A stretch of DNA of 28,877 nt from positions 1 to 28,877 of the IMG/VR virus record IMGVR_UViG_3300031566_014030; one strand, 5' to 3'. Below the pieces are notes generated by a model that saw only the letters and a list, made by a program, of their open reading frames with translations, made no database searches and was not told where the DNA came from. Shown here piece after piece: positions 3,139 to 28,417 of this stretch. Source of the stretch: a virus. How positions within the stretch are numbered: the first letter of the stretch is position 1; each line of letters starts with the position of its first letter. The position numbers and the translations under genes were made by a program.

Positions 3139-5145
3139 TTAGTGTCTCCTCTTTAATTCTATTTTTCTTAATACCTCATCACTTATGGTTACTGCCAATC
3201 TCTTAATATCTAGATCATTGGCTATTTTATTATCATGAATATCGATATATATTTTATTTTCGCCAAAACCTTGCGCAGTAATATTCGGAATTCCCACTGA
3301 TCCACCACCAGCAAAAGCGGGGACCGGAGTAGGTAAACCCCCGGTAATAGCTTCTACTAAATTTTGAGGGATCGCCTTAAACTTTCTGATAAAATCGGTC
3401 ATGGGTTTAGATATTACATATTCTCCAATATCTAATTTTGCCATTACCGTATCGGCCAATCCACCGAATTGATACTTTTTGACTTCACCACCAAAGTGAT
3501 ATCCCACTCCACCGCCTTTATTAAATCCTAATATACCGGAAAGCAGACCACCACCTGGAAAAATTAAGTTTATTATCCAGGAAGCTGCAAGTTTGGCTAT
3601 CTGCTGAAGAATGGCATCTATCATGCTTTTCCAAAGATCCTTCATAGCTTCCCCGAAAGTCTTAGCCCCCGAAAGTACACTATAAAAAGCACCACTTAAA
3701 CCGCTTACCATGGCAGCCCTCAAATCAGATATAAGATCACCAATAGCAGAAGTGGTATTATTAACAGTTTCTTCCATCTTCTCACCAGTATATTTTAGAG
3801 GCTCCAATATTAAATCCATATTATCAGTAATACCGTCTCCAAACATAGACATCATATTAGGCATCCATTGATCAGATTTAGAAAGAGGACCTTCTTTAGG
3901 TGGGGATTCAAAACCGAAGAAATTTTTAATCTTATTCCCTACATTTTTAACAGCATCAGTTACTTCTCCTACTTTAGATTTAATCCCTTCACTGAATCCC
4001 GATAAAGCATTTTTGCCCCATTCCAGCATTTTCTTAGGTAAATTAGCCAGATCTTCAAACTTTTGAATTATCCAGTCTATCATTTCTTGAACTTTTTGTG
4101 TTGCACTATCTCTTAAATCTGTAAGAAATCCTATTATTTTTTTATACCAATCTTGAACAAAGGCAACTATTGTATCCCAATTTTTCCATATTAATATAAC
4201 TGCACCAATGGCCAAAATCAATAATCCGATAGGACCAGTAGCTATAGTTCCTATGGCAGTTATAGCTCCCGATATTGCCCCAAAAGCAGAGACAGCCATT
4301 AAGATAGGACCGCCAACCATGGCCAAAACTCCAACCACCGCACCAACCTTCGTGATAGTTTCAACCAATGGAGCATTTTCCTTTGCCCAGGCTGCAACCT
4401 TACCTACTATTTCAGTGACCTTTTCTACTAAGGGGATAATCGCTGGGATCAAAGTATCGCCAATGGTTCTACCTGCCCCAGCCAAAGATCCTTTTAAATC
4501 GGTCATCCTATCGGTAAATTCGGCTGCCTTAGCTGCGGCTTCGGTGGACATGGTTATACCCAGTTCTTTGGCCCGGTTCATTAATTCCTCAATACCGCCT
4601 TCACCCGCTTTAAGTAAGGGCAATAATTCCGGGCCTGCTCTTGCTCCGAATAAATCCATAGCAAGGGCTGCCTGTTTGGTGGGGTTTTCTATTGCGGATA
4701 TTTTAGCTGCTGCCTCTTTTAAGACATCGATGGTAGATCTTAGGTTGCCATCTGAATCGGTAACGGATATATCTAATTCTTTAAAGGCTTCCATCCCTAG
4801 GCCTATACCCTTAGAAGCATCATCCATCGCTGTAGTTAATCCTTTGAGTCCCTTCTCTATTGTTTCAATAGATGTTCCTGATATATCACCAGCATAGGCC
4901 AGGGCCGATAAATCTTCTACTGCTATACCGGTACGCAAACTCATTTTATCGAATTGATCCCCTGCTTGGGCTGTTTTAAATACAATAGCAGTAAAAGCCC
5001 CGGTAACTGCAGTACCGGCAATGGTGGCGATCTTGCCTATTTTACCTAATTTTTCAGAAAAACTTGAAACGTGACTATCAGCTTTATCAAGTTCACCTTT
5101 TAATTTTGAAGCGTCACCTAAAATATTAACCCAAATATCAGCCAA
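3139..5145 (-). CDS. Tail tape measure protein
   Basis: 668 residues, initiated at TTG with GGGGGTGA 9 nt upstream. The N-terminus has the coiled, alanine-rich pattern of tape measure proteins (assembly scaffold for the tail tube, later ejected with DNA). Residues about 265-335 are strongly hydrophobic (several Gly/Ala-rich membrane-like segments), as expected for the part that enters the host membrane. Residues 340-450 are amphipathic helix. A Gly-rich stretch (FPGGGLLSGILGFNKGGG) lies near 560. By the usual 0.15 nm per residue the tail would be about 100 nm long. It sits between the chaperones G/G-T and the hub, the standard order. No peptidase or muramidase motif was seen. Confidence 0.93.
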   Translation of the reverse strand: MADIWVNILGDASKLKGELDKADSHVSSFSEKLGKIGKIATIAGTAVTGAFTAIVFKTAQAGDQFDKMSLRTGIAVEDLSALAYAGDISGTSIETIEKGLKGLTTAMDDASKGIGLGMEAFKELDISVTDSDGNLRSTIDVLKEAAAKISAIENPTKQAALAMDLFGARAGPELLPLLKAGEGGIEELMNRAKELGITMSTEAAAKAAEFTDRMTDLKGSLAGAGRTIGDTLIPAIIPLVEKVTEIVGKVAAWAKENAPLVETITKVGAVVGVLAMVGGPILMAVSAFGAISGAITAIGTIATGPIGLLILAIGAVILIWKNWDTIVAFVQDWYKKIIGFLTDLRDSATQKVQEMIDWIIQKFEDLANLPKKMLEWGKNALSGFSEGIKSKVGEVTDAVKNVGNKIKNFFGFESPPKEGPLSKSDQWMPNMMSMFGDGITDNMDLILEPLKYTGEKMEETVNNTTSAIGDLISDLRAAMVSGLSGAFYSVLSGAKTFGEAMKDLWKSMIDAILQQIAKLAASWIINLIFPGGGLLSGILGFNKGGGVGYHFGGEVKKYQFGGLADTVMAKLDIGEYVISKPMTDFIRKFKAIPQNLVEAITGGLPTPVPAFAGGGSVGIPNITAQGFGENKIYIDIHDNKIANDLDIKRLAVTISDEVLRKIELKRRH

Positions 5146-7440: not shown

Positions 7441-7887
7441 TTATTCCCTGGTTATAAAATTTTGCCTTAAAGTTATTTTCATATCAATCCCTACTCCCCT
7501 GAACGGATAAGAGTCAAAATCAAACCTGGTATTCGGGAAGCTAAAATATAGACATTTTCCATCCAGATCTATATGAGCACCCAGGGCTTTTTTAATATCA
7601 AAATTAACGTCAAGCACCCCTTTGGTGGTGGCATCTCCGACTATCTGTTTGTCTACATCAAAGATTTTTACATAGGCCCAGATAGTGACAGTAAAATTTA
7701 TCTCCGTATTATGGGGCATGGTTACTGCCTCTTCCGGTGCATTGGTAGGCTCCAAGATAATACAGGGGAAGTTACTAACCGGAATATTATCCCTGGTCCC
7801 CGGATAAACTATTTTAATATAACCTTTTAAAACAACATCCTCTTCTAAAATAGTTTTAACCTTATTCCAGATATCCTCTAATTTCAT
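7441..7887 (-). CDS. Tail terminator / tail completion protein
   Basis: 148 residues, start overlapping the end of the gpG-like gene by 4 nt. It begins with an amphipathic helix (LEDIWNKVKTILEE), then strands containing SNFPCIILEPT and TVTIWAYVK, and a C-terminal stretch DMKITLRQNF. This alpha-beta layout and length match gpU-like tail terminators, which cap the tube at the head-proximal end. Position between the gpG-like gene and the tail tube gene agrees. No catalytic motif is expected or seen. The family call rests mostly on order and length. Confidence 0.7.
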   Translation of the reverse strand: MKLEDIWNKVKTILEEDVVLKGYIKIVYPGTRDNIPVSNFPCIILEPTNAPEEAVTMPHNTEINFTVTIWAYVKIFDVDKQIVGDATTKGVLDVNFDIKKALGAHIDLDGKCLYFSFPNTRFDFDSYPFRGVGIDMKITLRQNFITRE

Positions 7888-8450
7888 TTGGTTATCTCCT
7901 CTAAATATTCGGTAAAGATCTTAACTATATTTGTTTCATCCTCTTCCTGGAAGAGTAAAAATTTACGCTGAGGCAATTTAGCTATCCTTGCCTTCTGGTG
8001 AACGTGCATAGCAAAAACATCTTCCCCGGTGCCCGGGTCAACCCAGTGTAAAGCCCTCGCTTTTACCGGGTAGATATCCCTTGCCGGTATATTAATAGTG
8101 GCCCCTTCCTGGTGTTTTCTCATATAATCAAGTCTGGTTCCTATCTGAACTTTCTGATCAGACACGACTTCATACACAATAGAGCCTCTTCCTATCCCGG
8201 TATCCTGTAAGATCTTCGCTCCCTTTCCTTCTTTTCTTCGCATGGCTATGGTCATAGGGCTAAGTGGAACCCACCTGGTAGGTCTGCCTTCTTCCCTAAA
8301 GTTTTTATCAATAGACCCTAACATTAATATCCCGGCTCGTTTTAAAGGAATTTTAAGATCCTTAGCTTTATCCCCGGCTTTTTTTAATAAGGCCTTTACT
8401 TCTTCATCTCCACTAATGTTATATTCAATTAATGCCCCCCCATTAGTCAT
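7884..8450 (-). CDS. Phage virion morphogenesis protein (Mu gpG / P2 gpS-like)
   Basis: 188 residues; overlaps the neighbours by 4 and 8 nt. Diagnostic for the tail completion family (Phage_tail_S): a helical start, then GRPTRWVPLSPMT, followed by KILQDTGIGRGSI, and later a RKHQEGATINIPAR motif close to the 'H..G' signature, ending with PQRKFLLF. In Mu the related protein takes part in head-tail joining. The neighbours (Gp36-like before, tail terminator after) are the usual ones. Length is slightly above the usual 150 residues. Confidence 0.85.
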   Translation of the reverse strand: MTNGGALIEYNISGDEEVKALLKKAGDKAKDLKIPLKRAGILMLGSIDKNFREEGRPTRWVPLSPMTIAMRRKEGKGAKILQDTGIGRGSIVYEVVSDQKVQIGTRLDYMRKHQEGATINIPARDIYPVKARALHWVDPGTGEDVFAMHVHQKARIAKLPQRKFLLFQEEDETNIVKIFTEYLEEITK

Positions 8451-8889
8451 TTTCTAAGTCCTCTATCTTATTGGGATCAGTTTCCCAGTTAGTCTCATCC
8501 CTCTCGTCAAAGGTCCTTTTATAATCTTTGGTGGTAGATTGAATAGCCTCCACGTCTACGGTAATACCTTCAATCTGTTTTCTACCCTCGGCAATATCTT
8601 TAAGGGTCTCTCTTGCCTCTTTATATTTATCGCTCCATGTATTTATGCTCGGTGATTTACCTGAATATAGGCCCCTCATCACAAAATAAGAGGCAATATC
8701 CTCAGATAAAGATTTTATGATAGCCGGGGTAGCCCCTAAAGCATCAAGGGCAGCCAACAGATCAGATGAAAAAGCTGCTCTTATTTCTGCGTCTGCTTTA
8801 ACAATAGCCTTAGCCAATAATAAAGCAGGTACTTCGATCACCGCCATATTCAAATTAGTTAATACATCAGCACCTTCACAAAAAGCCAT
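8443..8889 (-). CDS. Gp36-like head-tail connector (DUF1320)
   Basis: 148 residues, ATG with GGGAGA upstream. The mainly helical sequence contains the family pattern: an aspartate-rich helix (KAIVKADAEIRAAF), then PAIIKSLSEDIASYFVMRGLYSG, followed by a kinked helix and the segment KEARETLKDIAEGR. DUF1320/Mu gp36 proteins are placed at the neck and resemble HK97 gp6-like connectors. It lies directly after the capsid gene and overlaps the gpG-like gene by 8 nt. Confidence 0.85.
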   Translation of the reverse strand: MAFCEGADVLTNLNMAVIEVPALLLAKAIVKADAEIRAAFSSDLLAALDALGATPAIIKSLSEDIASYFVMRGLYSGKSPSINTWSDKYKEARETLKDIAEGRKQIEGITVDVEAIQSTTKDYKRTFDERDETNWETDPNKIEDLEND

Positions 8890-8948
8890 TTAAATCTCCC
8901 TTGTGATTAGAGGGAGAGAATATAATCCTCCCCCTCTAGATTTATTTA

Positions 8949-9860
8949 TTAGGTTACTGCTGGGGATATCCTATATCCACAAGCAATACAAACCATTTTT
9001 TCAGCTTCTATGTCACCCACTTCAAACCAATCACTATGTTTTACTTCTATTCTTGCCCTTCTGGTTTGAAATGTTTGAGATTGGAAGGTATAACCTAAAG
9101 AGAATTTCTTTATTCCAGGTCTAGGCTCTACATAAGCTAATATGGCATTCTTACCCCAGAGATAAGATAAAGATTCAGGCTTCCCTTCTTTGGCTGTATT
9201 ATAACCAGCTTTACCGACTATCACCTTTTCTACCTCAAATACACTGGCCATAAGATCAGGAGTAACTACGCCTTTTTGAACGTATTTAATACGATCTAGA
9301 ATAGTGGGATGGTGTTTCAACTTATCATAAACAGCCTTTCCTAATAGCAATACATTCGGCTCTTTAAAAATTACTTTATGTATGGTATCCTTCCCGGTTT
9401 CAATATCTCCTATAGGATTAGAACCATCAGTATAAACATCCCATTTAATACCTGGAGCATTGGCCGATAAGCTTGCCTCTAATATATCTTTGATCCTCAT
9501 CTCCAAACCTAATTGAAGGATATCAGTTAAAAATTCTACGGTATCTATTTCAAGATTTAGAGGTTTATCTGCATTATCTCTTTCTATATCATCAATTAAA
9601 TCATTTAAGGCATGCTCATCACAGTTATAACCATCCTCCGTTACTTTCCAATCCACAGTTCTTGATTCGGTCTTAGGAGCCCTCAAAGTTTTGGGAATCC
9701 TAAACCGATCAGCTTTAGAATCATAGATATAATATATATCCGATTTCTTTTTGACCGGTACAATTGGCATTAATTCAGTTCCGACATAATCGGCATTGCG
9801 GTATTGTACCGAGATATTAGTTAATATTTGATCTTTATGAACATTTTCCGGTCCTGGCAT
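8949..9860 (-). CDS. Major capsid protein
   Basis: 303 residues, ATG preceded by AGGTGA. Contains a typical E-loop/A-domain layout for capsid proteins found with Mu I-like proteases: LMPIVPVKKKSDIYYIY near residue 35, an AL-rich helix bundle around 110-135, PNVLLLGKAVYDKLK around 168, and a C-terminal VEPRPGIKKFSLGYTF. The order protease-decoration-capsid-Gp36 fits. No long scaffold-like N-terminal extension is present, so scaffolding must come from a separate protein, in line with the nested scaffold further upstream. Confidence 0.88.
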   Translation of the reverse strand: MPGPENVHKDQILTNISVQYRNADYVGTELMPIVPVKKKSDIYYIYDSKADRFRIPKTLRAPKTESRTVDWKVTEDGYNCDEHALNDLIDDIERDNADKPLNLEIDTVEFLTDILQLGLEMRIKDILEASLSANAPGIKWDVYTDGSNPIGDIETGKDTIHKVIFKEPNVLLLGKAVYDKLKHHPTILDRIKYVQKGVVTPDLMASVFEVEKVIVGKAGYNTAKEGKPESLSYLWGKNAILAYVEPRPGIKKFSLGYTFQSQTFQTRRARIEVKHSDWFEVGDIEAEKMVCIACGYRISPAVT

Positions 9861-9894
9861 TTAGTTTCACCTCGATTCTTTTATAAATTATTTA

Positions 9895-10275
9895 TTAAGC
9901 ACCGACAATAAGATGCAGTTTGGTAATTAAAACTTCTATTATTTCATCTGCACCCCCGGAAGTTTCCAGAGCTATTGCTCCGACAAAATCTTTATTTGCA
10001 GCTGCTAATACTCCGTGTCCATTAGCATCGGGAGTTAAGAGTGCATTTTCGCTGCATGCTCCGCCCATAACTAATTTACTTGTACCCAATAATCTTACCC
10101 TAGCAGCTTTGGTATTAGCGGGAGTATTCTGTAAAATTCCAGTAGAAAGTTCTTTGGCAACACCACAAGCGACAACACCGCTAGCCCCATCACATTTTAC
10201 AAAGTGATATTGAGAATTAGTTAGATCTGCGCCAGCTTTAAAAGTTAAGTCTAAAACACTGGCATCTTGAGACAT
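9895..10275 (-). CDS. Capsid decoration protein (DUF2190-like)
   Basis: 126 residues, Gly/Ala-rich, all-beta. The segments LTFKAGADLTNSQYHFVK, ATPAN-type turn (QNTPANTKAARVRLLGTSK) and GHGVLAAA fit small capsid cement proteins such as DUF2190. It sits between the protease-scaffold gene and the major capsid gene, the usual place. It probably binds at capsid three-fold or local three-fold positions after expansion and stabilises the shell. Ribosome site: AAAAGAGGTG upstream of ATG. Confidence 0.82.
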   Translation of the reverse strand: MSQDASVLDLTFKAGADLTNSQYHFVKCDGASGVVACGVAKELSTGILQNTPANTKAARVRLLGTSKLVMGGACSENALLTPDANGHGVLAAANKDFVGAIALETSGGADEIIEVLITKLHLIVGA

Positions 10276-10882: not shown

Positions 10883-11665
10883 GATATAAGTCTCCTTTCT
10901 TTTTTTCTCGACCTTTTGGGTCGTTTTCTTTTCTTCTTTCTCGTATATAATTAATTTAGCATTCTCATCAGAATCATATAAGGCAGCAATATCTTTTAAA
11001 TTGGTTACCGCCGGTAGATCAGCCCCCAAAAAGGCTATGGCCGAGAGGACCTTTTTATATACTTTCTTGGTGCTGGGCTCATTATAATTGTCTAAAATCT
11101 CACTGGATATCCTCTTATACGCCCCATTTTTGATTAATTGATATAGGACCTTAGGCACTTCCTTTATATCTACTAAAATTTTATCCCCTGCCCTCTTTAA
11201 TTTGGTGATCCAGCCACCAGCGGGATATCCTGTCCTTTGTAATAGCGCCTGTTTATCATCATGGCCCAGCTTTACTTTGGGCTTTAACTTATCGATTATT
11301 TCATTAGTGCCACTTACAATATTGTCAAGATCCTCACCGGTTATTTTATTACCTTTCCATACTCCAATACCAAATACCTCAACATCTTTTAACTCATAGG
11401 TCTGGGAATAATTTTCCAATATTGCCAATTCCATCGTGGTTAAATTCCCCTGCTCTTCGGTTTTAACCCAGTTACCCTCTTTGTCTTTTTTCCAACCTGC
11501 TTTTTTAAGTCCAGCCCAGGCAGTAGCATTGGCTAAACCTTCTCTTTCCGGTCTATCTTTGTACTGCTCATAGGCACTATTAAAAATATCAATCCAGGTT
11601 TTCTGGGCTTCTCCTGGTAAACTTTTTATCCCTTCCGGGATATTATCCGGATATTTGTAAGGCAT
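10304..11665 (-). CDS. ChaB domain - Mu I-like prohead protease - scaffold fusion
   Basis: Start chosen at the ATG of MPYKYPDNIPEG because AAAGGAG lies 9 nt before it, while the ATG three codons earlier abuts the same site. 453 residues. Residues 1-70 match ChaB (PYKYPDNIPEGIKSLP, FNSAYEQYKD, ANATAWAGLKKAGW). Residues 75-235 resemble the Mu I-like maturation protease: KVKLGHDD with His135 and KRISSEI with Ser187/188 as candidate catalytic residues, and LGADLPAV at the end. Residues 262-453 are a charged coiled coil (scaffold). It probably assembles the prohead and then digests the scaffold. Overlaps the portal gene by 23 nt. Confidence 0.85.
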   Translation of the reverse strand: MPYKYPDNIPEGIKSLPGEAQKTWIDIFNSAYEQYKDRPEREGLANATAWAGLKKAGWKKDKEGNWVKTEEQGNLTTMELAILENYSQTYELKDVEVFGIGVWKGNKITGEDLDNIVSGTNEIIDKLKPKVKLGHDDKQALLQRTGYPAGGWITKLKRAGDKILVDIKEVPKVLYQLIKNGAYKRISSEILDNYNEPSTKKVYKKVLSAIAFLGADLPAVTNLKDIAALYDSDENAKLIIYEKEEKKTTQKVEKKRKETYIMPNGIKITELEGKKYVAVEDFEKLEKEKEAADKEKETAKGFKEKFEAEEKKSKESEEKLNKISKEKREAEIKTFIDNHCSEKDMRFLPKQKEVLMALVESTSDEKKIKFTVDNKETELSQRELLEKFIGLQPNFSDSIFAELSKGEEEKEEGKDKLTPEEKKVQKYMDDHKEATYREAVLAVLDSTEEKKKK

Positions 11666-13853
11666 ATAACTCATCTCCTTTCATATTGATAAAATCCTTA
11701 CCCTTCATCGGTAAGACCCTGGCTTTTAATTCCGGTTTAATCGGTTCAAATTTTTCATAAATAGTTACCGGGATTAATTGTGATCGGCATTCATAATGTA
11801 ACGGTGGAGTATATCTGGCTATATCAGGATCACCATATATAAATACTTGACCGTCTAAAGCCAGGCATATATCGGTAGTCCGTTCATCAATTATGGCTGA
11901 AAACATTTCCCCGGCCATGATATCTTTTACGTCAGGATCTTCCATCATGTCTTGCCTACCCTGATTATAGGCATCTGAAAAATTAGTCCTGACTATATTT
12001 TCTAAATGGTGAGGGGTCAATAATTTCCCTTCTCTGGTTTCTACTCCCGGAGTACCTATAAATTTCTTAAAAAACTGATCCAATAAAAACATAATTTCTG
12101 GGGTAGTCGAACCGTTCTTCATTCCGGTATATAATATTCCTTTGGCATCCTTTAAAATGGCATCTCTCGTTACCCCAGCGATCCAAAAAGCCTTGTTTTT
12201 TAAATATTGCATTGCCTTTTCAGCGGGCAATCCCACAAATTTATTAATTTTTAATTCACTCTCTACTTCACTCATACCGTATCTAAATAATTCCTGTAGC
12301 CATCCCTTAATACAATCCCTAAATTCACCCACATAAGATAATTGTAATTTTTCCACTTCCCGGGCATTCTGGGATTCCATAATCTTGGCCCTGGTTATTG
12401 ATTTTTCAAGGGCTTCCTTTTGCCAGGTTAAAATCTCTCTAAGCTCTTCTTTAGCCTTTACTTCAAAGTTATCTAAACTCTTGATTATCCTGGTAAAATT
12501 ACATTTTTTTTCATATTGATTGGGCTGCCTTAATAATCTGCCTTGATAATTTAAGGTCTTACTCGGGGCCCCGAGCTCTATATTTTTAACAAATAATCCG
12601 CCTTTGGGTTTAGGTTCAGGTAAAATTATCCCTTTTTCTTTGGCCGGGATCTTCAAGAATTCCCGGACCCATTCCTCTTCTGGATTGATCAACCCTGCAT
12701 CAACTAATATTTTGGCAATTACAGCTTTGGCGTTCTGATCATCTTTAATTAGTGATTCAAATTTAAAATAAGGATATTTAGGTTGAGGAAAATTAAAATC
12801 TATTAATCGTTTTATGACCTGTTCCCGGATTATGGTATCTTCGGTTTCTGTACCTAAATAATCAAGGATATAAATAAAGATATCAAAATGGGTTTTAGAT
12901 AAAGCCCAGGAGCCTTGTTCCCCGGTGTCCATTAGAAGGGTCCCCACCAGCAGGGCCCGGGCTATCATTGCATTATTACTATCAAAAGCTGACTTATAAC
13001 CTGCATCTCCTCTCCTGGTAGCTTCCATAAGTTCAGCCTCTAAACCTACAGGCATAACCATCGCAGTATTGATCTGTATATTTTTTAATATGTCTAAATA
13101 TTCATCTTGTTTAAGTTTTGAAGTTCCAGAAGGATAACGGCCAATTATTGTAGGTTGACCATATTTTTCCAAATAAATATTCCAGAATCTTTGAACGATA
13201 TCATTAGAAAAATAATACCGATAGGCAGCCCTAAAATCGGACTCACCATATAAGCTGTCTGCATCGTCATCATTGGGGTTGTAGGCAAAAAGGATAAATT
13301 TATTGACCGGTAAAGGTTTATTGCCCGATTCAATCAAGCCTTTTTCTTCAACATTGCCATGCTCGTCACATTTAAACATATAATTTACAGCTTTTCGGAC
13401 CTTGATATTGTCAATCCCGATCATCCCTTTAAATTCTCCACCGGGAAGGATCTTATAATTAATTTCAGCCACCGAGTAACCATCTCTCATGGCATTCCAT
13501 ATTTTAAGCAGGGTATTATTTATATTCCCCTTCATCTCTGAAAAGCAATGCTCTATAAATTCAGCCTGTTTTACCGCATCCTGATCATCCTCATCTTCCG
13601 CCCTGATACTCCATGGAGTAGATAACCGGGCATACTTCTTTAACATAAAGACAGCTTTAACCTGGCCATCACGCCTTTGCATGGTCCGGTAAATTTCTAA
13701 CCCTTTTTTTTCTACCAGATCATCAGGATTATAGATAGGAAGATTACCAATACCCCAGATGTCAGTACCAGATTTGGACATTTCACCCATATCCGGTTTA
13801 ACCAGTTTTTTTATAGTCTCTTTAGTGTTTTGAAATATATCTTTTAAATCCAT
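11643..13853 (-). CDS. Portal protein fused to MuF head morphogenesis domain
   Basis: 736 residues. Residues 1 to about 430 match the DUF935 portal family of Mu gp29: LEIYRTMQRRDGQVKAVF, a tryptophan-rich WSIRAED, DGYSVAEINYK, and LSKTHFDIF. A helical linker follows. Residues 615-697 match the MuF domain: RTNFSDAYNQGR, then IIDERTTDICLALDGQVF and PPLHYECRSQLIPV, with the conserved D-x-R-T, C and H..CRS pattern. Portal rings form the DNA gate; MuF proteins are minor head proteins, sometimes ejected. In Mu they are separate genes; fusion is common in phages of Bacillota. It follows the promoter and hairpin leader behind the terminase gene. Confidence 0.92.
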   Translation of the reverse strand: MDLKDIFQNTKETIKKLVKPDMGEMSKSGTDIWGIGNLPIYNPDDLVEKKGLEIYRTMQRRDGQVKAVFMLKKYARLSTPWSIRAEDEDDQDAVKQAEFIEHCFSEMKGNINNTLLKIWNAMRDGYSVAEINYKILPGGEFKGMIGIDNIKVRKAVNYMFKCDEHGNVEEKGLIESGNKPLPVNKFILFAYNPNDDDADSLYGESDFRAAYRYYFSNDIVQRFWNIYLEKYGQPTIIGRYPSGTSKLKQDEYLDILKNIQINTAMVMPVGLEAELMEATRRGDAGYKSAFDSNNAMIARALLVGTLLMDTGEQGSWALSKTHFDIFIYILDYLGTETEDTIIREQVIKRLIDFNFPQPKYPYFKFESLIKDDQNAKAVIAKILVDAGLINPEEEWVREFLKIPAKEKGIILPEPKPKGGLFVKNIELGAPSKTLNYQGRLLRQPNQYEKKCNFTRIIKSLDNFEVKAKEELREILTWQKEALEKSITRAKIMESQNAREVEKLQLSYVGEFRDCIKGWLQELFRYGMSEVESELKINKFVGLPAEKAMQYLKNKAFWIAGVTRDAILKDAKGILYTGMKNGSTTPEIMFLLDQFFKKFIGTPGVETREGKLLTPHHLENIVRTNFSDAYNQGRQDMMEDPDVKDIMAGEMFSAIIDERTTDICLALDGQVFIYGDPDIARYTPPLHYECRSQLIPVTIYEKFEPIKPELKARVLPMKGKDFINMKGDELYALQISG

Positions 13854-19090: not shown

Positions 19091-19311
19091 TTAGTTTTTT
19101 CTTTTAAATGTTCTTCTAATTTTTTAAATTTCTCATCATGGCTTTTAAAGATCTCTTTAATACTAAGCAATGTATCAGCAAGGGCGGCAAGTTCTGAATT
19201 TTGTCCTTTGTTCTTCTCATAATAATTAACAAACCTGCATATCTTATCCCCTAAATCTTTGATCTTATCTATTTTTTGTAGGCCTTTTTTATCAAATATA
19301 TAGTTAGCCAT
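19087..19311 (-). CDS. Small coiled protein behind the helicase
   Basis: The frame opens at 19365, but the ATG at 19311 has AAGGAAAG upstream and overlaps the helicase stop by 8 nt, so 74 residues are preferred. Mostly helical and charged (KKGLQKIDKIKDLGDKICRF, SELAALADTLLSIKEIF, then KKLEEHLKEK). No family recognised. A helper of the helicase or single-strand binding step is possible from location only. Confidence 0.65.
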   Translation of the reverse strand: MANYIFDKKGLQKIDKIKDLGDKICRFVNYYEKNKGQNSELAALADTLLSIKEIFKSHDEKFKKLEEHLKEKTK

Positions 19312-20656
19312 CGATATCTTTCCTTTCTTCTCTATATTTTGAACTCTTCTTTTCCGCATCCTCATATTTAATAACCTCTTCTTTATCCCTTATATCATCC
19401 CAATTTATCCATCTGTGATATTCAGGATAGAATTTCATTTCTACCCTGCCCGTTTCACCATCTTTATTTTTAGTTACATTAATAATCATATATTCGGGGG
19501 CTTCACCATCCTTCCGAGATAGACTTTCCATTTTTAATTTACGTTCCCAGTAGAGTATAAATATTATTTCTGCTCTTTCTTCAATTGAACCTGATCCCCT
19601 AAAATCGCTATTTCTCGGTTCCCTTATCTTCCCTTCCTGTGGTCTGTGAAACTGCGACAATAATATTACAGATACATTTTTCGTCCTCGCTGTCTGTTGA
19701 ATCTGTAAGGTAAATTTAGTAAGCCTGGCATATTCAGATAAGTTCTCCGGATCGGATATATTTTGCAGATAATCAATTATGACGATGTCCGGCTTATATT
19801 CTGATATTGCCCTTATGATGTCTTGCATTTTATAGGCCCTAACACAATTATATTTCCAGATATCGTTAATTATTGGTATCATCGCCTCTATTTTCCCTTT
19901 ATCCAAATCCGTTAAATTACCCCATCTAAACCTCATAGTATTGATTTTTTGCGTATTAGCTAATATCCTTCTCATATTCGCTTTAGTAGATATCTCTAAC
20001 GTAATTACTAAAACATTATAATCAAGCCCACAAAACCCGATAGTTAAATCGGTGCCGAAACTTGATTTCCCACTGGAAGGATAGCCACCTATGATTATTA
20101 GATCGCCCCTATCAAACCCGCCAGTTATTCTATTTAGGCCTTCAAAGTTTTCTGGGAATTTAAAATCTGTCCCTTTCTCTGCTTCTTCTAAAGTCTTCAA
20201 TATAATATCTTTATTGGTTTCCTTTTCTACTTCATCGGGTGGCTTGATCTTATTTATGATATTTTCCAATTCTCCGGCTTCTATTTTGCCTAGCCTAAAA
20301 TCTTCAGTGGTTCTTAATATGGTCCGGTTATAAGTATAATTTTTCAAAAGTTTAAGATATTGTTCTATTGCTTCTATCGTAGGTACAGAATTTTGTATTT
20401 CAGTCAAACTCCCTAACCCTGCTTCTAATATATGATTTTTATATCCATAATCACTGACAGTTATGATATCTATTTTTATTCCTTTTTTATAAAGTATTTC
20501 AAATATCTTAAATATCTTCTTATAAATAATCTGAACAAAATCATCAATGGTTATCCTGCCAATTATTTTTTCGTATAGCTCCCCTTTTAATAGGATGCAA
20601 CCTATTACGACTCTCTCTATTTGCTTATTAAAATATTGCTTATCAAAAGATTCCAT
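19304..20656 (-). CDS. Replicative DNA helicase, DnaB type
   Basis: 450 residues. N-terminal helical domain (1-110) as in DnaB, with a linker, then a RecA-like core: Walker A GGYPSSGKSS (190-199), Walker B IVIIDY (291-296), sensor-like LLSQFHR (333-339), and the arginine-finger region NSDFRGSGSIEE (349-360). It unwinds DNA ahead of the fork as a hexamer. ATG overlaps the stop of the initiator gene (TAATG), the classic initiator-helicase pair. No separate helicase loader was seen, so the initiator may recruit it directly. Gene length is normal for the family. Confidence 0.95.
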   Translation of the reverse strand: MESFDKQYFNKQIERVVIGCILLKGELYEKIIGRITIDDFVQIIYKKIFKIFEILYKKGIKIDIITVSDYGYKNHILEAGLGSLTEIQNSVPTIEAIEQYLKLLKNYTYNRTILRTTEDFRLGKIEAGELENIINKIKPPDEVEKETNKDIILKTLEEAEKGTDFKFPENFEGLNRITGGFDRGDLIIIGGYPSSGKSSFGTDLTIGFCGLDYNVLVITLEISTKANMRRILANTQKINTMRFRWGNLTDLDKGKIEAMIPIINDIWKYNCVRAYKMQDIIRAISEYKPDIVIIDYLQNISDPENLSEYARLTKFTLQIQQTARTKNVSVILLSQFHRPQEGKIREPRNSDFRGSGSIEERAEIIFILYWERKLKMESLSRKDGEAPEYMIINVTKNKDGETGRVEMKFYPEYHRWINWDDIRDKEEVIKYEDAEKKSSKYREERKDIDG

Positions 20657-22217: not shown

Positions 22218-22964
22218 TTAATCTACCTCCGGAAATTCTTTTATCTCTGCCGGATAAATATTCTTTAAGCTATCCTTTAGATAAACAGGAATATTATTAT
22301 CCCTACAATAATCAACTATATTTTCTATCCATTCTTTTTTAGGGATAACCTTACCTTTTCTATTGCCTGTCTCAGTGCCAACAATCACCCAATCAAAATG
22401 TTTTAAATATTTATAAGAATATATTTTAGACAACAATGGTTCAAAAGAAATATATTTTATATTATTGTCTTTATAATTAATTTCCAGAAATTTGACTAAC
22501 GCCCAAATATCATTATAAAAGTCATTTTCTTTTGTTATCGTTATCCCTAACCAACAATTCTTAGGGAACTCATATTTTGAATATATTTCAGGATTTCTCG
22601 TTAGGAATTGAAAAGCATGTTGAGGATATTCTTTAGTTTTTTCAATTACCTTTTCTATCCATTCTTTTTTCCAATGGGCTATTTCACTCATAGACCCAAC
22701 AAATATTTTTTGAGGTTTTTTAGGGAATTTCTTATCAAATTGAGATTCTAAAAAAGTAGGTTTGAAATTCCATAACCCACCTAATTGGTCTCTTGTCCAA
22801 ACCCAGCCAGGATGTTTTTTATAATAATAATTAAACTCATTTCTATACATCTGATTCCAAAATCTTTTTGATATCTTTCTTGCATAACAGTATTTACAAT
22901 TATTAAGACATCCCCAAACGCTATTCCATGTGATGTCGCACCAACCGATTTTATTTTTAGCCAT
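22218..22964 (-). CDS. DUF5131 / phage Gp37-Gp68-like protein
   Basis: The frame opens at 22991 but GGAGGGG lies 6 nt before the ATG at 22964, so 248 residues are preferred. It starts KNKIGWCDITWNSVWGC, then the cluster Cys19-x3-Cys23-x2-Cys26 (CLNNCKYCYARK), the pattern of radical SAM proteins and of the Gp37/Gp68 family. Further motifs: KIFVGSMSEIAH, FLTRNPE, NCWLGITI, YISFEPLL, FDWVIVGTETG and the final PVYLKDSL. The reaction of the phage family is not established; an iron-sulfur protein acting on nucleic acid or nucleotide is one idea. Its first eight codons are repeated at the start of the HNH gene just upstream. Confidence 0.85.
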   Translation of the reverse strand: MAKNKIGWCDITWNSVWGCLNNCKYCYARKISKRFWNQMYRNEFNYYYKKHPGWVWTRDQLGGLWNFKPTFLESQFDKKFPKKPQKIFVGSMSEIAHWKKEWIEKVIEKTKEYPQHAFQFLTRNPEIYSKYEFPKNCWLGITITKENDFYNDIWALVKFLEINYKDNNIKYISFEPLLSKIYSYKYLKHFDWVIVGTETGNRKGKVIPKKEWIENIVDYCRDNNIPVYLKDSLKNIYPAEIKEFPEVD

Positions 22965-23467
22965 TAATATCCCCTCCATCTTTGCCCACATATTATTTTT
23001 TTAATTGTAGTATGAGATGTTCCAAATAATCGCCCAACCTTACAATACGAATAACCTTGTTGATATAATTCTCTTATTACAGGAATGTTCTTTGGTTTTA
23101 ATTTAGTAAATTTACTTTCATGCGGGATTGGCATAGTTCCATGTTTCCATTTATCATCTATGTTTTGTTTCCTTGTTCCCCATTCTAAATTGTTAATATT
23201 ATTATTCTGATTATTCCCATCAAGATGTCTGCTCTCATATCCACTTATTTTTTTACCCTTAAAAGCATTTAAAATCAGCAAATGAATATAATACTTTTTC
23301 CCACCATTGTGATTATATAAAAACACATACAAATATCCGGTATTTTTTTTAATTGGCTTCAAATACTTTACAGATTTTGATGAATAAACATTCCCATTTT
23401 TGCTTATAGAATATTCAGGATAATCTTCAATTTCTTTCATATCACACCATCCTATTTTATTTTTCAT
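22964..23467 (-). CDS. HNH homing endonuclease with NUMOD4 domain
   Basis: 167 residues. Residues 11-70 are NUMOD4-like (IEDYPEYSISKNGNVYSS, then GYLYVFLYNH and IHLLILNAF). Residues 77-100 are an HNH_3 motif: ESRHLDGNNQNNNINNLEWG with His81, Asp83 and Asn92/93. The C-terminus (PVIRELYQQGYSYCKVGRLF, then THTTIKKI-like helix) is an HTH for target binding. The first nine codons (MKNKIGWCD) copy the start of the DUF5131-like gene, and TAATG joins both genes, showing insertion at the 5' end of that gene. A second usable ATG lies at codon 10 (MKEIEDYPEY), the normal NUMOD4 start. Confidence 0.92.
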   Translation of the reverse strand: MKNKIGWCDMKEIEDYPEYSISKNGNVYSSKSVKYLKPIKKNTGYLYVFLYNHNGGKKYYIHLLILNAFKGKKISGYESRHLDGNNQNNNINNLEWGTRKQNIDDKWKHGTMPIPHESKFTKLKPKNIPVIRELYQQGYSYCKVGRLFGTSHTTIKKIICGQRWRGY

Positions 23468-26105: not shown

Positions 26106-26939
26106 TTAAATCCCTTTTTCTATAAATTTATTTAATCTAATCTTCTCGTCCTTCTCTTTTCTTAGCATTTGCACTAAATGACCCTGATCAATATTTTGTA
26201 ATATACAATCTTCAATAATCTTCCTGAGTACATCTGGCGGTAGTGAATCAAGTTCTACCACCATATCAGAGCCATAGATACTAACGAATTTATTATAATT
26301 AGGATCGCTCTGTTTGGCCGGGTCCGAAGGTAATTGATATTTTTCTATCTGTTTTTGGGTTAAAGCGATCCTCTCAAAATTGATAAATACACCAAAATCC
26401 ATAATCCTTTTTTTTATAGAATCATAAATAGATAGTCCTGAGGGGTCAAAATCACCGCAATAATATAAATGGCATTTTTTATCGATTTTAGCTTTATACC
26501 TTCCGGCAGTCCTATATACTTCCGTCCGGGATAACTGCCCTCTGGCTACCATTAGGGCAACGTCATATTGATAGGTAATCTCAGTCAAGACACTTCGCAG
26601 GGCATCCTTTTCAGTCCAAATTTCTAAATAACTATCCTGGTTTTGCCACTTATCTTTACGGTATGATATTTTAACTGACTGCATAAATTCATTAAGCTTG
26701 AGCCAGGAGCTTAGCTTATCTACTGCTCTTAACCGATCAGCAAACCCTTCCTCTGGCAATATTCCCTCATCCCTGCCCGCGACACAAAGCCGGGATAGCT
26801 TTTTATAATATCTTTGCTCGTTAGGAATAATTTGCCTGGCCACTAATTGATAATAAATCTGCCTAAGCGTCAGAGCAAAATCATAACTATCTATTATTTC
26901 TTGTACTTGTGTTAAAAGTTCTAAAGATTGCCTTTGCAC
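26106..26939 (-). CDS. Orphan Topo VI A/Spo11-like protein (Mini-A type)
   Basis: 277 residues, GTG start with AAGGGG 10 nt upstream. Residues 8-60 form a winged-helix 5Y-CAP-like unit: LTLRQIYYQLVARQ with Tyr29/Tyr30, the place of the catalytic tyrosine in Topo VI A (R-x-x-Y-Y). Residues 103-190 are a Toprim domain: LEIWTEKDAL with Glu106, and YYCGDFDPSGLS with Asp163 and Asp165, the E...DxD metal site. Such standalone A subunits without a B subunit were described in mobile elements as Mini-A. No ATPase partner is seen here. It may cut and rejoin DNA in phage replication. A simpler Toprim nuclease is the alternative. Confidence 0.85.
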   Translation of the reverse strand: MQRQSLELLTQVQEIIDSYDFALTLRQIYYQLVARQIIPNEQRYYKKLSRLCVAGRDEGILPEEGFADRLRAVDKLSSWLKLNEFMQSVKISYRKDKWQNQDSYLEIWTEKDALRSVLTEITYQYDVALMVARGQLSRTEVYRTAGRYKAKIDKKCHLYYCGDFDPSGLSIYDSIKKRIMDFGVFINFERIALTQKQIEKYQLPSDPAKQSDPNYNKFVSIYGSDMVVELDSLPPDVLRKIIEDCILQNIDQGHLVQMLRKEKDEKIRLNKFIEKGI

Positions 26940-26940
26940 C

Positions 26941-27147
26941 TTATCGCAACCCCTTTATATAAGATTGGATGTCATTAAGACATTCTGTATTAAATATGGT
27001 TCCGGTTTCCGGGAAAAAGGCGTATTGTCTCCAACTACTCCACCACTTAATAATCCCAAGTCTAATGGGATGCGTTTTAGAATTTACCTCAATAACTTGT
27101 GTTTTAGGCTTTTGTTCTAATAATCGAAATTCAAGATATTTGCTCAT
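26941..27147 (-). CDS. Small hypothetical phage protein
   Basis: 68 residues; ends 2 nt before the Topo VI A-like start codon. Sequence pattern SKYLEFRLLEQKPKTQVIEV, then LGIIKWWSSWRQYAFFPETG and FNTECLNDIQSYI: beta-rich with a conserved-looking WWSSWRQYAFFPE core, known from small phage proteins of unknown role. Ribosome site AAGGAGATAAAAG before ATG overlaps the stop of the next small gene. Confidence 0.75.
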   Translation of the reverse strand: MSKYLEFRLLEQKPKTQVIEVNSKTHPIRLGIIKWWSSWRQYAFFPETGTIFNTECLNDIQSYIKGLR

Positions 27148-27365: not shown

Positions 27366-27935
27366 TTAGTCATATACTTTTTTATCTCCCGATGTTTCAA
27401 CTACGTTATAGTTCCAATCCCAAACTGTATAACCAGATACAGTATGAGTAGACCTACTATCCCAATCATTTACGCAAGCCCTAAAATTGGGTAAGGTATA
27501 ACTAGAGGGATAATAATAGCAGCCAGTTTGGTGATAACTCGTATAACAATAACCACTACCCGACTTATAGATACATATTCTATGAGCTAACCCATCGGTA
27601 TATAAGATATGAGTTTGATAAGTAGTATAACCATGCTGGTGTAAACAATAGGAACATAAAGCAGCCCCTTCACTACAGTCTCCAGATTTAGTTTTCCAGA
27701 ATTCATAAGGGCTTTTAACTGTATCGTAATTAACTACAAAGGTACAATTACCTCTTATCCAAGAGGTTATTTTAGCAGGGCTATCCATACTATTTACAAA
27801 GCTCGTAAATGCAGGATCGCTAGGTGGACTCCAGGAGCTAAGATCATAGTAACCTCCAGTACTACTACAACCGGCCATTAATAATAAAAGCCCTAAGATC
27901 ATGACTAAGGCAAAGTTTCTTAGTAATTTCTTCAT
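27366..27935 (-). CDS. Lipoprotein with transglutaminase-like domain
   Basis: The frame opens at 27989, but GGGGGTGA lies before the ATG at 27935, giving a clean signal peptide: KKLLRNFALVMILGLLLL, lipobox MAGC with Cys23. 189 residues. Downstream, KSGDCSEGAALCSYCL with Cys87 followed by DGLAHRICIY with His118 matches the Cys-His part of transglutaminase/cysteine protease-like domains; a third residue (Asp) would be expected near 135-160. The rest is Cys- and Tyr-rich (ten Cys or more), unusual. A cell-surface role in the lysogen (superinfection exclusion or attachment change) is possible. Confidence 0.75.
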   Translation of the reverse strand: MKKLLRNFALVMILGLLLLMAGCSSTGGYYDLSSWSPPSDPAFTSFVNSMDSPAKITSWIRGNCTFVVNYDTVKSPYEFWKTKSGDCSEGAALCSYCLHQHGYTTYQTHILYTDGLAHRICIYKSGSGYCYTSYHQTGCYYYPSSYTLPNFRACVNDWDSRSTHTVSGYTVWDWNYNVVETSGDKKVYD

Positions 27936-27970
27936 TTCTTTTTTCACCCCCTTTCGGTCTTTATTTAGAT

Positions 27971-27994
27971 GGGGCTTGTCAGACCTCAAGCCCC
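27971..27994. promoter_or_regulatory. GC-rich hairpin between the two lipoprotein genes
   Basis: GGGGCTTG (27971-27978) and CAAGCCCC (27987-27994), 8 bp perfect, eight-base loop. On the minus strand no U-tract follows; the ribosome site of the next gene begins about 20 nt later. On the plus strand ATATTTTT follows after one base. An mRNA-stabilising or processing hairpin, or a terminator read from the plus strand. Confidence 0.4.
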
Positions 27995-28018
27995 CATATT
28001 TTTAATTGTTTATTTTGC

Positions 28019-28417
28019 TTATTCAACAAAAACGCCTACGATATCTGTTTCGATTACCCTGCCAGTCCAAAAATTATGCTGAGTATAGGTAACTAAAATG
28101 GTTGTCTCGCCAGATCCAACAGCCCTAATCCAAACTTCATCTCCTACAATATCTACGATAGCGACTTCAGGATCATTCGATGAGTATTCACAATCGGTAA
28201 GTTTTATATCCTCACTAGTCCCATCATTATAATTAGCGGTAACAGATTCTATTTTGCCTGCATTTTCAGGAATTAAACTCGTAGGTTTCGGCATTTCTAA
28301 ATATAGTCCCTCCGGATCAACAGTGATTGATATAAGCTTCGATTCAGGCAATACCCAGCAACCGGCAAGTAAACCAGCAATCAATATAACCGCCACCAAC
28401 ACAGTTAGCTTTTTCAT
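28019..28417 (-). CDS. Lipoprotein with Ig-like (BIG2-type) domain
   Basis: 132 residues, ATG with AGGAGGTGA. Signal peptide KKLTVLVAVILIAGLLAGC with lipid Cys20. Residues 30-132 form an Ig-like group 2 pattern: LISITVDPEGLYLEM, ESVTANYNDGTSEDI, SSNDPEVAIVD and VGSGETTILVTYTQ, the last being the typical BIG2 end. Complete domain, short linker. BIG2 domains bind surface partners; in a phage genome a lipoprotein of this kind is probably a lysogenic-conversion or receptor-blocking factor. Stop is followed by a strong hairpin before the next lipoprotein gene. Confidence 0.85.
   Translation of the reverse strand: MKKLTVLVAVILIAGLLAGCWVLPESKLISITVDPEGLYLEMPKPTSLIPENAGKIESVTANYNDGTSEDIKLTDCEYSSNDPEVAIVDIVGDEVWIRAVGSGETTILVTYTQHNFWTGRVIETDIVGVFVE

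Follow-up and report, generated by a model that had tools for sequence, protein, structure and literature searches.

A phage Mini-A protein with the aligned catalytic residues of Top6A and Spo11, and its possible place in recombination

Top6A, the A subunit of Topo VI, and Spo11 cut DNA in such a way that the tyrosine comes from one subunit and the metal site from the other (PMC11922746). Mouse SPO11 can do so by itself, as a dimer with these hybrid active sites (E224, D277, D279; PMC11922746). Proteins known as Mini-A have been described from bacteriophages and archaeal viruses (Takahashi et al. 2020, the family definition being that relayed by reviews), and the one of Pseudomonas phage NP1 is the example drawn in PMC7614492. 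Here we consider a Mini-A gene in the virus record IMGVR_UViG_3300031566_014030, a partial genome of 28.9 kb (positions 1 to 28,877, the whole of which we call the window). The family is already described and the window protein adds another member to it; we put at roughly one in two the probability that Mini-A acts as a homodimer and without ATP, as a Spo11-like transesterase that supplies phage recombination with breaks or nicks.

The predicted catalytic residues of Mini-A

The gene, its predicted domains and the codons of its candidate active-site residues lie as follows.
26106..26939, minus strand: Mini-A (Topo VI A/Spo11-like) gene, 277 aa, GTG start; supported by PHROG 6247, identity to NP1 and a model pLDDT of 94
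26649..26939, minus strand: N-terminal winged-helix (5Y-CAP-like) domain, residues 1-97; predicted alone, motif aligned to Top6A
26862-26864, minus strand: codon of Arg26
26850..26852, minus strand: codon of Tyr30, the predicted catalytic tyrosine; family-invariant, aligned with the Top6A tyrosine in 31/31
26190..26633, minus strand: Toprim domain, residues 103-250; structure matches to Top6A, MksG, JetD and Spo11
26610..26612, minus strand: codon of Glu110, the predicted Toprim metal-binding glutamate (EKDAL); 168/168 in the family, 31/31 in Top6A
26445..26453, minus strand: codons of Asp163-Phe164-Asp165, the Toprim DxD; 168/168 in the family, 31/31 in Top6A

Sequence comparison makes the window protein a member of the known Mini-A family. 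PHROG 6247 ('DNA topoisomerase') matches it at full length (residues 2-274, E 2.7e-68), and the published NP1 protein is 32% identical over 247 aa that cover both domains (E 6e-42). With these it shares full-length similarity, size, both domains and the tyrosine and Toprim residues, as well as a viral carrier and a missing B subunit. Relatives are encoded in 76 phage records found by tblastn, NP1 among them, those listed being 29-36% identical. Pfam and NCBIfam profiles gave nothing above cut-off with the protein, direct searches of the PDB by sequence, made with the protein and with two profiles, gave no match, and the single BFVD match below E 0.001 is an unnamed 152-aa protein. The reading frame is a real gene under purifying selection: copies in three other viral contigs (L002-L004) are 85-92% identical to the window protein and the ratio of nonsynonymous to synonymous substitution rates (dN/dS) among the four is 0.07-0.12, which speaks for a constrained protein and not for chance. 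Its GTG start immediately follows the stop codon of the preceding gene, and AAAGGGG lies before it.

Judged by alignment, Mini-A keeps the complete Top6A/Spo11 catalytic set, Arg26, Tyr30, Glu110, Asp163 and Asp165, all of which fall on columns invariant in 31/31 archaeal Top6A sequences in three MAFFT modes. The central claim of the original prediction, a stand-alone Topo VI A/Spo11-like protein, thus stands on the family match, on the 5Y-CAP tyrosine and on the Toprim metal residues, and the tyrosine of its LRQIYY motif (residues 25-30), on whose alignment that claim hung, coincides as Tyr30 with the Top6A tyrosine in every one of the 31 sequences. Of 168 aligned relatives, 167 have Tyr30 and one has a gap there, while Tyr29 is Phe or His in some of them, and this makes Tyr30 the catalytic candidate. 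A variable Tyr29 beside a fixed Tyr30 mirrors the tandem tyrosines of SPO11, where the second of the pair is catalytic in mouse and yeast has Phe at the first position (PMC11922746). The complete Toprim metal site proposed earlier needs one correction: Asp163 and Asp165, which lie inside GDFDPSG, were right, but Glu106, although found in 165/168 of the family, is V/I/L in archaeal Top6A and is ruled out, the metal glutamate being most plausibly Glu110. Another glutamate, the invariant Glu229 in an ExxAL pattern, was considered as a counterpart of the clasp partner Glu342 of Top6A (PMC13040014); MAFFT alignments placed it elsewhere and we do not claim it.

It should be noted that the viral and genome loci were chosen by Tyr or DxD motif patterns, so that conservation at those columns is partly selected. 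As a check, a profile-based sample was drawn from 395 genomes of one bacterial phylum. Every full-length member in it keeps the tyrosine, and full-length members down to E 1e-40 all keep Tyr30, the Toprim glutamate and the DxD; in the remote L216 and L222 the Toprim motifs are altered.

Some members depart from the usual gene layout. In Parabacteroides phage PDS1 (L013:6944-7830) Mini-A is divided between two genes that overlap and are annotated 'DNA topoisomerase' and 'DNA primase'; comparable splits occur in L010, L092 and L098, and any of the four may reflect a sequencing error, a frameshift or a real split. In L214, L217 and L223, from the bacterial phylum of L099, the tyrosine and Toprim motifs lie within larger proteins of 461-542 aa, and L217 and L223 read TDYDPWG, nearer to Top6A; these could possibly be intermediates linking Mini-A and Top6A.

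Predicted fold, and the search for a B subunit

The structure model (predicted local distance difference test, pLDDT, 94) supports the same kinship. When its Toprim domain was compared with the PDB by VIA-align, the leaders were Top6A (1d3y, Z 11.0), MksG (8b7f, Z 11.0), JetD (7til, Z 10.6) and Spo11 (8uru, Z 9.1), and the top three Foldseek matches in the PDB were all Top6A, with E just above 0.001. In profile comparison by hhalign, Mini-A against four Top6A sequences scored 28.2, as compared with 15.7 +/- 2.5 and a maximum of 23.8 in 150 shuffles.

The tie at the head of the structure ranking (Z 10.6-11.0 against 11.0) would also suit a Toprim nuclease of the JetD/MksG type, as in Wadjet, with a tyrosine that takes no part in catalysis, and the invariant E229-x-D231 could match the glutamate pair proposed for JetD (PMC10123090), a correspondence that is unaligned. 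However, the 5Y-CAP-like domain of MksG offers no tyrosine candidate (PMC10123090), while in Mini-A an invariant Tyr30 aligns with the tyrosine of Top6A. MksG also differs in its partners, the SMC-like MksBEF (PMC10123090), and no such complex is seen beside the window Mini-A. The Pfam JetD_C profile gives 13.7 bits over 30 residues (cut-off 22), and the best PADLOC JetD match, at E 8e-7, is confined to 30 residues. Given the shared Toprim fold (Z 10.6-11) we keep this explanation in view as a distinctly improbable one.

The predicted absence of a B subunit was borne out as far as the searches reach. GHKL ATPase (PF02518) and Topo VI B (PF09239) profiles had no match in 42 Mini-A virus records, nine deposited phage genomes among them, with control genomes matching as expected; no B subunit was recognised in the partial window or in the complete kin genome G007, and no ATPase domain was matched by profile inside the Mini-A open reading frame (ORF) itself. 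Mini-A therefore appears to lack what an active type IIB topoisomerase (Topo VI or Topo VIII) requires. One might suppose that Mini-A depends on a partner ATPase, either supplied by the host or not recognisable by sequence, as Top6A needs Top6B for topoisomerase activity and a divergent partner could go undetected. Against this stand the empty profile searches in the 42 records and the fact that no constantly linked neighbour, the candidate for an obligate partner, was found among 173 Mini-A loci, and we hold it very improbable.

With the residue set complete, the same chemistry as that of Top6A and Spo11 is the simplest inference. Two copies of Mini-A would dimerise on bent or supercoiled phage DNA, and Tyr30 of one subunit, together with the Toprim metal site of the other, would attack each strand. 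The product would be a staggered break or a nick with the protein on the 5' ends, made without ATP. A different outcome is that of an ATP-independent relaxing enzyme, in which Tyr30 nicks and reseals and lowers supercoiling ahead of phage forks, leaving no lasting breaks. An ATP-independent relaxing Topo VIII from Microscilla has been reported (PMC7614492) and Mini-A sits in the replication modules of many phages; however, Mini-A lacks an ATPase for strand passage, breakage is what wild-type SPO11 dimers mostly produce, kin phages with complete genomes manage without the gene and hosts own topoisomerases, so relaxation seems to us an unlikely function.

An optional gene and the possible purpose of its proposed breaks

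The window carries head, tail, terminase, integrase, resolvase-like, DnaB, O-like initiator, DUF5131 and methyltransferase genes. Mini-A lies in the replication half, beside the O-like, DnaB and resolvase-like genes, and its earlier assignment to an early cluster is reasonable on that ground. Its immediate neighbours are as follows.
26941..27147, minus strand: 68-aa gene upstream of Mini-A, its stop directly before the Mini-A start; downstream of Mini-A in kin L004
25930..26100, minus strand: 56-aa CxxC...H...C protein adjoining Mini-A; in G500 without Mini-A, missing beside Mini-A in G008

Kin genomes were found via their terminases, which are 83-100% identical, and three of them, with exact terminal repeats of 119-127 bases, were taken as complete (circular): G007, which has Mini-A, and G496 and G500, which do not (terminase 86-87% identical). 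In G500 the site is empty, a gene resembling that which precedes Mini-A in L004 (with similar ends, ...VYILED and ...VYVLEEN) being followed directly by the 56-aa zinc protein, while in L004 Mini-A sits between the two. The methyltransferase is missing in G007 and present in G496 and G500, and zinc proteins and methyltransferase alike occur in kin genomes both with and without Mini-A. The coupling of Mini-A to these genes that had been proposed cannot be upheld. Complete kin without the gene, independent variation of the neighbours and the empty site show Mini-A to be an optional gene of this phage group, to which none of the neighbouring genes is firmly tied; the complete presence/absence pair and the exclusion of these neighbours as partners are new.

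Accessory distribution with such clean presence and absence might suit an optional weapon that cuts host or competing-element DNA, the phage DNA being protected by methylation or by its location. A methyltransferase gene is indeed nearby and the Toprim region has weak matches to the anti-plasmid nuclease JetD. On the other hand, the two genes occur apart from each other in kin (Mini-A without methyltransferase in G007, the reverse in G496 and G500) and other phages carry Mini-A in recombination or replication operons, and in our opinion the weapon is improbable. Of the three roles originally suggested, origin opening, recombination and host takeover, the first is unlikely because the phage itself encodes an O-type initiator and a DnaB helicase and complete kin dispense with Mini-A. 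Recombination is the better one. In NP1 and PaMx25, a DNA ligase gene precedes Mini-A at a short distance, a Sak4-like annealing gene adjoins it, and a Cas4-type exonuclease and a helicase are close by; a PD-(D/E)XK exonuclease is encoded in 16 of the 42 Mini-A virus records; it is these neighbours and this exonuclease that make us favour recombination. An SNF2-type helicase lies within 6 kb of Mini-A in 20 of 173 loci, where the commonest neighbour types are integrases (37) and helix-turn-helix repressors (21).

We therefore return to Mini-A as a Spo11-like transesterase. Phage or host exonuclease, annealing protein and ligase would use its break for recombination, recombination-dependent replication or repair, Mini-A acting as an optional enhancer and not as an essential replication factor. 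The purpose of the breaks is less certain than the cutting chemistry: while the anatomy of the protein is seen in alignments and model, its activity would follow by analogy and its purpose from context. Several points weigh against this proposal. We found no report of a demonstrated activity or function for any Mini-A. Recombination-type context is common in phage replication modules and the counts above come without a background set, and the window has no recognised annealing protein or exonuclease. Mini-A against Top6A sequence profiles is marginal (E 0.005-0.03), and with a larger Top6A set the hhalign score falls to 23.6, below a shuffle maximum of 26.2; the score is moderate and profile statistics by themselves would not decide the relationship to Top6A. 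The isolated N-terminal domain, predicted as a winged helix, matches generic winged helices at Z 5-7. Top6A was not listed in this winged-helix-only search, which we do not count as evidence against the kinship.

The window Mini-A belongs to a separate clade of 11 members, which is also new here (support 1.0, stem branch 0.57). Its members share changes at sites otherwise conserved in Mini-A, for example W63E, Y135Q, D174S, R214N and W228V, and the window protein and its nearest kin are without the N-terminal extension usual elsewhere. The same clade holds a 68% identical Mini-A (L094, 6497-7414) on a contig binned to Candidatus Methanolliviera. Among the ORFs also examined there (4029-5093, 7833-10256 and 11120-12343), we read TFB-like, D5-type primase-helicase-like and Orc1/Cdc6-like genes. 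A copy so similar beside archaeal-type genes suggests that L094 is an archaeal mobile element sharing Mini-A with presumably bacterial phages, and that the gene is exchanged between bacterial and archaeal elements. A bolder proposal would make Mini-A the counterpart, in viruses, of the initiation of meiotic recombination: an autonomous Spo11-like break maker, independent of ATP, that sets off phage recombination deliberately and whose optional gene is exchanged between bacterial and archaeal mobile elements. We advance it tentatively, as something less probable than not.

A few further observations concern the surroundings. The DUF5131 gene (window 22218-22991) is kept in most kin (G007, G008, G496, L004) and lies near Mini-A in several unrelated loci. 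The DnaB-like helicase (window 19304-20656) has no counterpart detected in kin G007, G008, G496 and G500, which suggests that the replication module is being swapped within the phage group. Upstream of Mini-A, window 27366-28417 encodes two predicted lipoproteins, weakly similar to transglutaminase in one case and to immunoglobulin in the other, both with relatives in the complete kin G496. Just downstream of the Mini-A of L144, positions 7836-8933 encode a protein that contains a long NTGNRNTGD-type repeat, with related proteins in four loci.

Mini-A beside Top6A, Topo VIII and Spo11

The Top6A/Spo11 cutting module has its simplest form in Mini-A, which dozens of phages carry. Should the protein make covalent breaks unaided, it would reveal the workings of the module in the absence of a B subunit and provide a bacterial system for studying Spo11 chemistry; since the gene can be lost, its effect is measurable, and the presence/absence pair of complete kin is a natural starting point. 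Compared with Top6A, Mini-A is about 90 residues shorter and has no Top6B partner, but it likewise joins a winged helix, as predicted, to a Toprim domain and has, in the same order, RxxYY, EK, DxD and a following D/Q-I-x-x-Y-x-LP stretch. Topo VIII resembles it as a type IIB family protein found on mobile elements (PMC8185306), yet Mini-A is the A part alone, while Topo VIII, a topoisomerase, also has a B part. Spo11 is eukaryotic, acts in vivo with Top6BL and has very low sequence similarity to Mini-A; the two nevertheless have the same residue set and a second tandem tyrosine as the catalytic one, predicted in the case of Mini-A, and Spo11 works outside a strand-passage cycle, as Mini-A probably would.
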